Positions 53,150 through 56,870 of a stretch of DNA of 64,000 nt are shown here, in pieces. The notes beneath the pieces are model-generated. The model worked only from the letters and a program-made list of their open reading frames with translations, did not search any database and was not told the DNA's origin. Positions within the stretch are counted from its first letter, which is position 1; each line of letters starts with the position of its first letter. Made by a program: the position numbers and the translations under genes. Source of the DNA: Shouchella patagoniensis (lineage in GTDB: Bacteria; Bacillota; Bacilli; Bacillales; Bacillaceae_D); contig NZ_KV917377.1 of NCBI RefSeq assembly GCF_002019705.1, positions 1,858,565 through 1,922,564 of the forward strand. The letters run 5' to 3'.

Positions 53150-53599
53150 ATGACACGACCAGCACTTTCACAATGGGACGCTTTTATGGTTGAAACATTG
53201 CTTGCAAAAGGCATGTCACAGCAAACCTTAATCCAGCATATTCAAAACGAAAACGCCGATGCTTTGAATGCATATGATCAAACGTTTAATTACTCCGACC
53301 TCATTCAAACAGCAAAAAAAGCACCTAAAATACTTTTAGAAGCGATCGAAACGGGCTACACGATCAAGTTTGTATCAAATTTCGGCATTAAACGCTTGCT
53401 TGGATTAAAGTTTGGATTCGAAGACGGCGTTGATTATCATATGTCAGAAACCCGTTTTGACAACTTAACATTAACTGAAAATCAATTACACGTATTTCAG
53501 CCAATGCTCTCTCCCAATTGGAAGCTATTTAGTGAAAAGAACAAACAAGACAAATACGAAGTAGCAATTATCCATGCTACTGCCGTGGAACAAGTTTAA
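53150..53599 (+). CDS. Protein of unknown function, last gene of the peptide ABC operon
   Basis: 149 residues, soluble, no signal peptide, no membrane helix. I do not recognise the family. The N-terminal third is helical (LSQWDAFMVETLLAKGMSQQTLIQHIQ) and resembles a small helix-turn-helix-like bundle only loosely. The middle has KAPKILLEAIETGYTIKFVSNFGIKRLLGLKFGFEDGVDY, and the end is beta-rich. It starts 13 bases after the binding-protein gene with AAAGGAGAG, and a terminator follows, so it belongs to the same transcript and probably acts on the imported compound or senses it. Confidence 0.75.
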   Translation: MTRPALSQWDAFMVETLLAKGMSQQTLIQHIQNENADALNAYDQTFNYSDLIQTAKKAPKILLEAIETGYTIKFVSNFGIKRLLGLKFGFEDGVDYHMSETRFDNLTLTENQLHVFQPMLSPNWKLFSEKNKQDKYEVAIIHATAVEQV

Positions 53600-53607
53600 T
53601 AAGAGTA

Positions 53608-53646
53608 AAAACCTTAGCATATCCATGCTAGGGTTTGTTGTTGTTT
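53608..53646 (+). terminator. Terminator of the TetR/oligopeptide operon
   Basis: AAACCTTAGCAT and ATGCTAGGGTTT pair around a 4-base loop with one wobble, followed by GTTGTTGTTTT. Confidence 0.75.
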
Positions 53647-53791
53647 TAATAGCTTTTCTGCGTTAGGTTCATTAAGCTAAAAACAACAAAAATTGTTTAT
53701 TTATTAAAAAAGAGATTTTATTCCAACAGTTTCCCTTCTTGAAACGTTATCTCTATGAACAAAGCAAAAATGAATGGAACAGGTGATTTGT

Positions 53792-54238
53792 GTGGAAAGA
53801 ACATTTAACGATCTTAACAAAGATTTACTACGCTTTGCCTGTTCCATTGCTAGGCATGAGCAGGAAGCTTTTGATCTAATGCAAGATGCATGGGAAAAAT
53901 CTCTACATGTAAACGAACTTTCTTCTTGGCCATACCATAAGCAAAAAGCTTGGTTTTATCGGGTAATGAAAAACGCCTTAATCGATACAAGAAGAAAACA
54001 AAAACGCGAATCGGCATTAGCGGATTTGGATGAACCTGTCTTCATCGCATATGGCTTTTCAGCGTTCGAAACAACTGAATTATTACAAGCATTACCTACG
54101 AAACAAAGAGAGATTGTCTTTAAACGGTATTGGATTGGTCTTTCAAGTAATGAGATTGGTGCTGAACTAAACCTACCAGCTTCGACCGTCCGTTACCAAC
54201 TCGCACAAGCGATTCAAAAACTACGGGAACAATTTTAA
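53792..54238 (+). CDS. Small sigma-70 family (ECF-like) sigma factor
   Basis: 148 residues from GTG 53792, which has AGGTGAT 4 bases upstream; ATG 53774 six codons earlier lacks a site but cannot be excluded. Region 2 is at about 5-75 (LLRFACSIARHEQEAFDLMQDAWEKSL, then KAWFYRVMKNALIDTRRKQKR). Region 4 is at about 95-148 (LPTKQREIVFKRYWIGLSSNEIGAELNLPASTVRYQLAQAIQKLR). It binds core RNA polymerase and selects special promoters. No anti-sigma gene is beside it. It is followed after 12 bases by the repeat-rich protein and the exporter gene, so it may control its own operon. Confidence 0.88.
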   Translation: MERTFNDLNKDLLRFACSIARHEQEAFDLMQDAWEKSLHVNELSSWPYHKQKAWFYRVMKNALIDTRRKQKRESALADLDEPVFIAYGFSAFETTELLQALPTKQREIVFKRYWIGLSSNEIGAELNLPASTVRYQLAQAIQKLREQF

Positions 54239-54250
54239 GGAGGAGCAAAA

Positions 54251-55438
54251 ATGGGTCAACGAATTGGAAATGTTGGGACGTTAAATCTATTAAAAGCAAC
54301 ACCAGAAAGCATTGCGGAGTACGATTATATTGGGAATGTCGGTCTCGTTTTATACAATCAACAGACGGCTCCCCTACTTTCAAAACTATCAATTGGTAAT
54401 ATCGGGCAAACGATTAGCCTGGAAGGTGATGCCAAAATAATAACAGGTGTGCTTACAATTGATTCCAATTATTTGAAACTTCTTGAAGAGTCAACACCCC
54501 TCCTTGTAAATGGTGTTGTTATTGTCACACCAAATGTAACGGAAACAGAATTAAAGGAAACTGGATGTTCACTTATCGTTAATGGTGTCATTTATACTCC
54601 TACTCAATTAAAGAGTGCTGTTCAGACGATCGTGAAAAGCAACAGTGGACTTACACTCACCTACGAAGGCGTTGAGCCTATCATAAAGAACGGAAATTTT
54701 GAATTAACGAATCAATTTTTAGATTCAATAACCGATAAGGCTCCCATTCTTATAAATGGACTGATCACACTTGCTCAAGATCTTGACACAGCATTATTTC
54801 ATTCAAAAGTTGAGCGAATAGATGTGAATGGTAAAGCTTTATTGTATCAAGAACAAGAAACCACCTTTTCTGCAAAAGCAACTGTCAATGGAAAAATTGA
54901 AGTCATACCAGCAGGTTTTATGCCGTATCGCACTAGCTTACAATTAAACATGCGCTCTATACGCAAATTTAAAAATCAGCGTATGTATACAAATAAGCCA
55001 ATTATTTTCGAGAAAGAAATTAACCGTGATCAATTTAGCTCTGCGTTTCAATCAATCCACTCTACCTCGTATATCATTTGTCATGAAGAGATTGAAGACC
55101 TTGTGTATGAGACACTTAACCTAATTGAAACGGAAGTCTTTGTATACACAGAAGCCATTCGATACGTTAAAAACGAGAAGTGGTCAATAGAAGACATCAA
55201 TGCATTAGATCTAGGTACTACGATTGTCGTCCATGAAAAACTCACTCTTCCTGAAGTAATAGACGATTTAATTGCTAAACGGCCAGTTATTAGTATTATT
55301 GGGGAACTTCATGTTCCTAATAATATGGTTAAAGCAGCTGTTCAATCATTGGTTCAAACGTATGACGGGCTTATTGTAAATACATCAACACAAGAAGATA
55401 CTCTTGAACTTCATAATATTGGTGAACTTTCTCTTTAA
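54251..55438 (+). CDS. Repeat-rich protein of unknown function
   Basis: 395 residues, soluble, no signal peptide or membrane helix. The family is not recognised. It is built from imperfect repeats: IGNVGTLNL, IGNVGLVLY and IGNIGQTISL at the N-terminus, then VNGVVIVTP, VNGVIYTP, INGLITLAQ, VNGKALLYQ, VNGKIEVIP about every 30-40 residues, and HNIGELSL at the end. Each is preceded by a short helix and a K/T-x-PILI strand. This pattern suggests a beta-solenoid or bactofilin-like polymer former. It lies between an ECF-like sigma factor (12 bases) and an MFS exporter (14 bases), with AAGGAGG upstream of its ATG. Confidence 0.8.
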   Translation: MGQRIGNVGTLNLLKATPESIAEYDYIGNVGLVLYNQQTAPLLSKLSIGNIGQTISLEGDAKIITGVLTIDSNYLKLLEESTPLLVNGVVIVTPNVTETELKETGCSLIVNGVIYTPTQLKSAVQTIVKSNSGLTLTYEGVEPIIKNGNFELTNQFLDSITDKAPILINGLITLAQDLDTALFHSKVERIDVNGKALLYQEQETTFSAKATVNGKIEVIPAGFMPYRTSLQLNMRSIRKFKNQRMYTNKPIIFEKEINRDQFSSAFQSIHSTSYIICHEEIEDLVYETLNLIETEVFVYTEAIRYVKNEKWSIEDINALDLGTTIVVHEKLTLPEVIDDLIAKRPVISIIGELHVPNNMVKAAVQSLVQTYDGLIVNTSTQEDTLELHNIGELSL

Positions 55439-55452
55439 GAAAGGAAAACTCT

Positions 55453-56805
55453 ATGAGTCATAGTCAACTCGAATATGCGAAAGAGCGAATCAAACAGCTA
55501 CGTGAAGAAGCGCGTTTATACCATTTATCGAAACAGGTCGCACAAAAAACAGAAAGGCCACATTCCATATGGGAAGTCCCAGGCTTTCCTAAGCTCTTTG
55601 CTTCCTATAGCATTTCAATTATTGGGCAATGGTTTGACATGGTTGCCATTATGATTGTATTTGGATACATCTGGAATGCAGATCCATTCCTTATTGCCTT
55701 AATCCCTGTTGCATACGCAGCTCCTCAAGCACTTTTTAGCCAATTTGCAGGTGTTATTGCTGAGCGAACAAATAAAATCAAATTAATGGCCATCGCAGAT
55801 TTATGTACAGTTCTGTTAACAATAGGTTTGTTTTTCACCTCAACACCGATTGCAGCACTTCTTATCCTAACACTGCGAGGAATCGTTAACGTCATACATT
55901 TCCCCGCACAACAAAGTTTGATTCGCCAACTTGTTCCTGACAAACTTCGATTAAAAGCAGTAACGTGGAATGGGGGCATAAACCAAGCGGCAAAAATCTT
56001 TGCCCCACTTGTTGGTGGTGCTCTACTCACATTTATGAATCCACAATCTCTGCTGCTTATAAATGCATTTGCATTTTTTATCTCTGCTTGCTTGCTTCTA
56101 TCAATGTTTCGCCTGAATAACACAACTTTAAAAGAAGACTTCCAATCTACTGACTCGGACCAGCCTTCTTTCTTTGAACAGTGGCGTAATGGTTGGCAAT
56201 CTATCTTTACGACTCAAGTCCTTGCACTAACCATAAGCTTATCTTTACTTGGTATTTCCATTATCCAACTTGTTGACTCTCAATTCGCTGTGCTATTTCG
56301 CGAGCTTGCTCCAGCAAAGCCACAAATCGTTGGCTGGATTATTTCTTCTATTGGTGCCGGCGCAATCACAGTAATGATGATCCTCAATCGACTTGATGAA
56401 TTAAAGCGAATTGGTTTATGGCTTAGCCTTGCTCTGCTTTTTATCGGTATTTCATTTAGTGGAATTGGTCTGCTTCAAATCAATTTCCCTCTATTTTCAC
56501 CACTTCTATTTGGGTTTATAGGTGGGATTGGAACCGGGATTGCGATGGTTGTTTCCAATTTCGTTATTCAAACGATTCCCAAACCATGCGATGTAAGTAC
56601 AGTAGCTGGAATATTCCAAACACTAACGAGTTTTTCCGTTTTTCTAGCCCCTTTACTTGGAGCAGCGCTTATCCATGCGGTAGGAATACAAGCGGTCTTC
56701 ATTCTTTGTGGTTTCTTGCTCATTGTTGTTGGGTTCCTCCCGATGATATGGCTGCGACGCCGTTCTTCTATTTCGAGAAAGGCTGAAATGAAACATAGCG
56801 CATAA
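55453..56805 (+). CDS. MFS transporter, DHA3 (macrolide efflux-like) family
   Basis: 450 residues with 12 membrane helices after an unusually long charged N-terminal part of about 50 residues (SHSQLEYAKERIKQLREEAR, helical). ISIIGQWFDMVAIMIVFGYIW and LRGIVNVIHFPAQQSLIRQLVPDKLRLKA are typical of the DHA3/MefA-type exporters. Family members expel macrolides and other small molecules; the substrate here is unknown. It is the third gene of the sigma factor operon, suggesting that export is induced through the sigma factor. Confidence 0.88.
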   Translation: MSHSQLEYAKERIKQLREEARLYHLSKQVAQKTERPHSIWEVPGFPKLFASYSISIIGQWFDMVAIMIVFGYIWNADPFLIALIPVAYAAPQALFSQFAGVIAERTNKIKLMAIADLCTVLLTIGLFFTSTPIAALLILTLRGIVNVIHFPAQQSLIRQLVPDKLRLKAVTWNGGINQAAKIFAPLVGGALLTFMNPQSLLLINAFAFFISACLLLSMFRLNNTTLKEDFQSTDSDQPSFFEQWRNGWQSIFTTQVLALTISLSLLGISIIQLVDSQFAVLFRELAPAKPQIVGWIISSIGAGAITVMMILNRLDELKRIGLWLSLALLFIGISFSGIGLLQINFPLFSPLLFGFIGGIGTGIAMVVSNFVIQTIPKPCDVSTVAGIFQTLTSFSVFLAPLLGAALIHAVGIQAVFILCGFLLIVVGFLPMIWLRRRSSISRKAEMKHSA

Positions 56806-56837: not shown

Positions 56838-56870
56838 AAGCCACGATTACTAACTATATAATCGTGGCTT
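56838..56870. terminator. Bidirectional terminator between MFS gene and maoC-type gene
   Basis: A perfect 12-bp repeat AAGCCACGATTA/TAATCGTGGCTT with a 9-base loop lies between two convergent genes. T tracts on both sides are modest. Confidence 0.75.

Follow-up and report, generated by a model that had tools for sequence, protein, structure and literature searches.

ECF sigma factors are commonly, though not universally, paired with a cognate anti-sigma factor that carries a known domain. The locus described here lies in Shouchella patagoniensis, in a 64,000-nt stretch of contig NZ_KV917377.1 that was analysed as a whole (hereafter the window), from a genome of 4.65 Mb in 3 contigs. Its sigma factor shares with the partnered ECF sigma factors of Bacillaceae the presence of regions 2 and 4 only, a conserved predicted promoter of AAC-N-CGT type upstream of the sigma gene itself and a tightly coupled downstream partner. 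Unlike in the usual case, this partner is a repeat protein without a match to an anti-sigma family. Several ECF groups are given without a recognised anti-sigma factor or a known mechanism in the part of PMC8999054 drawn on here, including in Bacillaceae ECF201 (Oceanobacillus picturae) and part of ECF265 (its Table 2). Going by these partial descriptions, the window sigma factor is like them a Bacillaceae ECF sigma factor without a recognised anti-sigma factor, and one might guess that it belongs to ECF201.

Two further families bear on the partner protein, which we call the solenoid. Bactofilins are, like it, elongated repeat proteins, and their fold is an all-strand beta-helix. The RHH_8 regulators (PF17723) carry repeat units homologous to those of the solenoid, and their genes frequently overlap an exporter-like gene.

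Gene content of the locus

The original prediction had proposed three genes, for an ECF-like sigma factor, a cytosolic repeat protein and an MFS exporter, and the ORF calls confirm all three on the + strand within 53774-56805, with intergenic gaps of 12 and 14 nt (Table 1). For the sigma gene, the GTG at 53792 is the preferred start; judged by eye, its ribosome-binding site (AGGTGA, five bases before it) is the better one. The inverted repeat behind the exporter gene is the probable end of the operon. The nearest named relative found was Bacillus sp. JCM 19041 (Bacillaceae; 89% identity), whose solenoid gene is split into two ORFs in a draft assembly (L016:6001-7187), through either assembly error or decay. 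The window also holds a 149-aa ORF (53150-53599) downstream of oligopeptide-transporter-like genes, which has no Pfam or NCBIfam match.

Table 1 Features of the sigma-solenoid-exporter locus in the window
Feature	Position	Strand	Basis or remark
Terminator-like hairpin, parts upstream gene from operon	53609..53636	+	Terminator list
Conserved ECF-type promoter CCAACA-N16-CGTTATCTCTATGAA of sigma gene	53723..53759	+	Locus comparison
ECF-type sigma factor	53792..54238 (ORF opens 53774)	+	Pfam regions 2 and 4; ORF of 154 aa
Strand-helix solenoid protein, 395 aa	54251..55438	+	Constant gene partner of sigma
MFS exporter-type protein, 450 aa	55453..56805	+	PF07690; nearest NCBIfam model TIGR00900
Charged N-terminal helix of exporter	55453..55560	+	Resembles small separate module proteins elsewhere
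Inverted repeat after exporter gene	56838..56870	.	By eye; absent from terminator-tool list

The sigma protein matches Pfam regions 2 and 4 with E values of 1e-9 and 8e-12; PF04542, PF08281 and PF04545 exceed their cut-offs, and region 3 is without a match among the matches listed. It passes the cut-off of the general model TIGR02937 and falls below that of the other 24 models among the matches listed (24 of 89, TIGR02937 aside). No anti-sigma family occurs among the Pfam and NCBIfam matches of the solenoid and MFS proteins, so that the earlier reading of a sigma factor without an anti-sigma factor holds in the sense that neither downstream protein contains a known family of this kind in these two collections. 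The job of an anti-sigma factor may fall to the solenoid or to the small helix described below.

The sigma and solenoid genes across genomes

The sigma gene stands directly upstream of the solenoid gene in 40 of the 40 genomes in which the locus was read. These are the window and 16 other genomes (L016-L032, where L028 repeats L018), the loci L060-L079 (20 of 20), and three distant loci from outside the class (L133-L135). A first search found the solenoid protein in 16/40 genomes, its own included, and a solenoid profile then matched 29 of 397 genomes of the order, one of them (G037) with a fragment at a contig end; weak matches in G092, G204 and G264 (E 2.5e-4 to 6.3e-4) and a second match in G005 were left out before this count. 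At E<=1e-25 a sigma profile picked out exactly those 29 of the 397 genomes that hold the solenoid, a result to be read in the light of its having been built from sigma-solenoid loci, so that more divergent partnerless sigma factors could be missed. In G251, whose locus is outside the 40, the sigma and solenoid matches are also adjacent. A draw from the phylum gave solenoid matches at E<=0.001 in 7 of 398 genomes, namely the own genome, G462 at full length, G547 and G478 weakly, two RHH proteins and one case of noise; weak as they are, the matches in G547 and G478 sit in the same sigma-solenoid architecture.

The gap between the two genes ranges from -25 to +22 nt in 37 loci and is 2 nt or less in 28 of them (hand-entered coordinates; L016, L021 and L028 omitted), a spacing like that of translationally coupled pairs. 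The other neighbours of the pair vary among loci. To judge by sequence comparison, the sigma factor and the solenoid are a conserved two-gene unit. The expectation that all three genes would travel together was therefore right for the sigma factor and the solenoid (adjacent at 40/40 loci; the same 29/397 genomes) and wrong for the exporter, an operon member in 9/40, and it is to the sigma-solenoid pairing that the earlier claim of a candidate undescribed system now attaches. Relatives were absent from plasmids (searched with the window and L064 proteins), phages (window protein) and viral contigs (profile A3). In one distant genome, a gene that overlaps the solenoid gene (L178:7143-8255) resembles by eye a membrane-anchored alpha/beta hydrolase.

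A solenoid encoded with the sigma factor at every locus read, behind the same promoter, might also be an activator, serving as a co-sigma factor or chaperone and giving positive feedback once a ligand binds. The sigma factor, however, retains both region 2 and region 4 and should need no assistance, and we regard an activating solenoid as distinctly improbable.

A predicted promoter at the operon

Upstream of the sigma gene stands CCAACA-N16-CGTTATCT, which is kept although the A3 solenoid proteins are only 27-47% identical to that of the window. With at most one mismatch, this strict pattern occurs at 31 sites in 29 of the 37 solenoid-bearing genomes, and 31 of the 31 lie at the module; the reversed pattern, searched as a control in the same 37 genomes, gave 0 sites. 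In a promoter score, which omits L016 and L021 (near copies of the window and of L020), 33 of 34 loci exceed the best of 611 random windows, the exception being L078, and the score is descriptive because the consensus was drawn from the scored loci themselves. Similar sites precede sigma in L134 and L135.

A slightly looser pattern yielded 36 sites, spread over 22 of 25 genomes; 25 of them lie at the module and 11 elsewhere (one mismatch each), versus 6 control hits, so that a few further sigma targets are possible. In the own genome a looser pattern yielded 10 sites versus 11 in the control, which gives no sign of a wider regulon. Two loose sites were taken as chance: one common to G003, G005 and G006, within the coding sequence of an NPPF-motif protein, and the own genome's second one, within a transposase-like coding sequence by eye. 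Beside the module, extra copies of the promoter precede a small ORF in each of G151, G215 and G084, and in G462 a gene pair. This pair (L177:7640-11085) consists of two adjoining ABC exporter-like genes, encoding 572 and 575 aa, and follows an almost identical copy of the sigma promoter. The first gene has matches to ABC exporter families, and the second was recognised by its LSGGQ motif. Given that 33 of 34 loci carry the predicted promoter and that the strict matches, all 31, lie there, the sigma factor most likely transcribes little beyond its own operon.

The solenoid protein and its relation to RHH_8 regulators

The IGN- and VNG-type repeats noted earlier in the solenoid are real: in AlphaFold2 models (pLDDT 87 and 89, pTM 0.65 and 0.68) strands and short helices alternate along the chain, and the better model, built from 33 sequences, consists of strand-helix units throughout. 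The Pfam matches of the window protein are at chance level and its PHROG matches weak; it matches no NCBIfam model and no PDB sequence, and profile A3 likewise found none among PDB sequences. Foldseek searches against the PDB and viral models gave nothing at E<=0.001; leucine-rich-repeat solenoids are among the top ranks, without significance.

The proposed likeness to bactofilins did not survive these comparisons. No bactofilin family appears among the Pfam matches listed for 33 members, helices stand between the strands in the models, and the repeats are instead homologous to the C-terminal part of RHH_8; on the first two points a bactofilin identity was rejected. Cys277 was also considered as a redox or metal sensor. 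All of the first 14 sequences keep it, but L073-L077 have Val and L078 has Thr at this position, and the idea is weakened since the residue is not universal.

RHH_8 (PF17723) matches 26 of 33 solenoid members at E<=0.5, with a best E value of 2e-9; in L133 the match covers profile positions 78-115 only (a single range available). When an HMM of the RHH_8 C-terminus (8 sequences) was run against 1022 ORFs, ranks 1-36 were all solenoid proteins, with 2-5 segments each. The window solenoid came at rank 42, after three unrelated ORFs and with a weak E value of 1.4, and it has no RHH_8 match in its own Pfam search, so its link to RHH_8 runs through its relatives. The HMM of the N-terminal DNA-binding half did not pick out the solenoids, the best of which came at rank 14 with E 9. 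This pattern marks the repeats of the solenoid family as homologues of the RHH_8 C-terminal part. The solenoid differs from the RHH_8 regulators in its many repeats and in lacking any detectable RHH DNA-binding half, whose place is taken by a sigma factor.

RHH_8 was found in 8 of 299 phylum genomes, 7 of them above the cut-off. Eight genomes with a true RHH_8 protein were read, the 7 over the cut-off and G714; L138 (a purine-permease-like region) and L146 (an SMC-like ORF below the cut-off) were dropped as noise. By motif and by eye, the RHH_8 gene overlaps an ABC exporter-like gene in 5/8 and an MFS-like gene in 1/8; G620 and G714 have no exporter-like gene adjoining it. The RHH_8 protein of L137 gave only weak HSP90 hits among PDB sequences.

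An NxGxLxL-type motif is common to the first and the last strand of the solenoid; N7, N389 and L393 in it are invariant in 33/33 sequences, and such ends could allow end-to-end stacking. The solenoid might be the product of the operon, as a cytosolic scaffold, filament or sponge, with the sigma factor controlled otherwise, for instance by the small charged helix protein in the role of a short anti-sigma factor. A regulon of one operon would fit a product as well, the promoter being found mainly at the sigma-solenoid operon, and in many genomes the operon seems to consist of no more than sigma, the solenoid and a small ORF. Yet such close translational coupling to sigma is more in keeping with a partner than with a product made in bulk, the homologous domain belongs to the RHH_8 regulators, which bind DNA, and no significant structural neighbour in Foldseek points to a filament. 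On balance we think it unlikely that the solenoid is the product.

The exporter and its charged N-terminal helix

The MFS protein exceeds the cut-off of PF07690 and matches TIGR00900 (the 2A0121 profile) with E 2.6e-33, below the cut-off of that model; it is a candidate member of the drug exporters of class TC 2.A.1.21/DHA3. It is the third operon gene in 9 of the 40 genomes read, all in the GTDB family of the window, and a homologue is absent from the operon in the other 31. A window-type exporter therefore cannot be the general purpose of the module, and its absence from 31/40 loci is what chiefly speaks against a pure efflux role. The gene distribution marks the MFS exporter as a lineage-specific third gene. 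A distant MFS gene (22% identity to that of the window), lacking the helix, lies about 170 nt upstream of sigma in one locus (L017:4119-5369).

At E<=1e-70, 13 exporter homologues were found in 46 genomes, 9 in the operon and 4 outside it (G253, G294, G047 and G221). These four next-best homologues are 37-43% identical, align only from residue 32-36 onwards and start just before a shared IW motif; those of G294 and G253 lie 1.7 kb upstream of sigma. The charged N-terminal extension claimed for the window exporter is thus real and missing from all four, although it comprises about 36 residues and not about 50.

The view that this helix is special gained from separate small proteins of the module elsewhere, which resemble it. 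L067 was among the training sequences of a first helix model. A model of the exporter helices only, run against 9166 small ORFs from loci without the fusion, placed L017, L071 and L067 on top (E 1e-5 to 1e-4); they are the only matches below E 1e-3, and all flank the module. Ranks 4-5 are one unrelated ORF found twice. Eight of the top 10 lie in the module flanks, which supply 3.5% of the ORFs, a proportion drawn from related loci that are not independent. The L070 small protein scores poorly (E 0.4 in the first model, outside the top 30 of the exporter-helix-only model). A small ORF occupies the equivalent place at many loci, and for L018, L064, L066, L068, L076 and L077 it was recognised mainly by position and a ribosome-binding site by eye; none was seen in L072 or L133, nor in L019-L022 except YrzI, and L078 and L079 are uncertain. 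The resemblance to the exporter helix is clear in three loci and weaker or positional in others. We read the helix as a once separate protein of the module that became fused to the exporter.

The YrzI exception invites comparison, as YrzI family proteins (PF09501) are short and charged like the small proteins of the module. L019-L022 carry a YrzI-family gene some 250 nt downstream of the solenoid gene, and the L019 copy matches the family with E 4e-18. Among eight small sequences compared with PF09501, only that of L019 passes the cut-off, two are weak (L071 among them) and five give no match; in 18 of 24 genomes, moreover, YrzI is found at places outside the module. With 1/8 over the cut-off and this off-module distribution, YrzI is out as the general third protein. 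The part of PMC10100781 used here describes yrzI operon products as peptides of unknown function.

Its confinement to 9 genomes, all of one GTDB family, could mean that the MFS gene is a passenger, caught behind the sigma operon in a single lineage and functionally unrelated to it. This explanation sits badly with a helix that the in-operon exporters have, that their four next-best outside homologues lack and that resembles the small proteins of the module; with the ABC gene pair of a distant genome, which stands behind a promoter copy of its own; and with the related RHH_8 regulators whose genes overlap exporter-like genes. We consider an exporter without functional connection to the module quite unlikely.

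Proposed mechanism and its significance

The comparisons above indicate a promoter, a fixed sigma-solenoid pairing, the resemblance of the helix to small proteins, a relation to RHH_8 and exporter-like genes in two regulator settings. We propose an autoregulated ECF-sigma module in which the solenoid sets sigma activity and the exporter removes a toxic compound, a reading to which we give an even chance. The sigma factor would direct RNA polymerase to the dedicated promoter before its own gene, and this would switch on sigma, the solenoid and, in the lineage of the window, the MFS exporter with its charged helix. The solenoid would be the cytosolic partner that binds sigma and sets its activity, most likely by holding it inactive. 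Sigma would be released when a toxic compound, the presumed ligand, or the state of the exporter is sensed, and the exporter would then remove the compound. The module is probably one for efflux, and the solenoid may plausibly stand in for a canonical anti-sigma factor.

A more specific version makes the exporter itself the switch. The charged helix would be a short peptide that binds sigma or the solenoid; fused to the MFS protein, it would hold the sigma complex at the membrane and release it with transport, and the solenoid would be an expanded RHH_8 regulatory repeat, a new class of sigma partner. This version is doubtful; if true, the sigma factor would read efflux demand directly.

A description of the module was not found among the papers listed on ECF classification, autoregulation in alkaliphiles, ECF201, anti-sigma-MFS fusions or RHH_8/PF17723, nor among those on ECF factors with bactofilins, ECF factors without an anti-sigma factor but with an MFS protein, or RHH with ABC proteins. 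These searches covered titles and the starts of abstracts, and subscription papers fell mostly outside them. For one of the ECF sigma factors without a recognised anti-sigma factor there is now a constant partner and a precisely predicted promoter, and the regulon predicted for it extends little beyond a single operon; this combination makes its control testable in laboratory Bacillus. In addition, one repeat domain is linked with exporter-like genes both in a sigma setting and in an unrelated RHH regulator setting.

As a separate observation, among the RHH_8 loci L136 and L139-L144 the regulator gene overlaps an ABC exporter-like gene (5 genomes) or an MFS-like gene (1 genome) by 8 nt, a candidate regulator-exporter operon type of its own.
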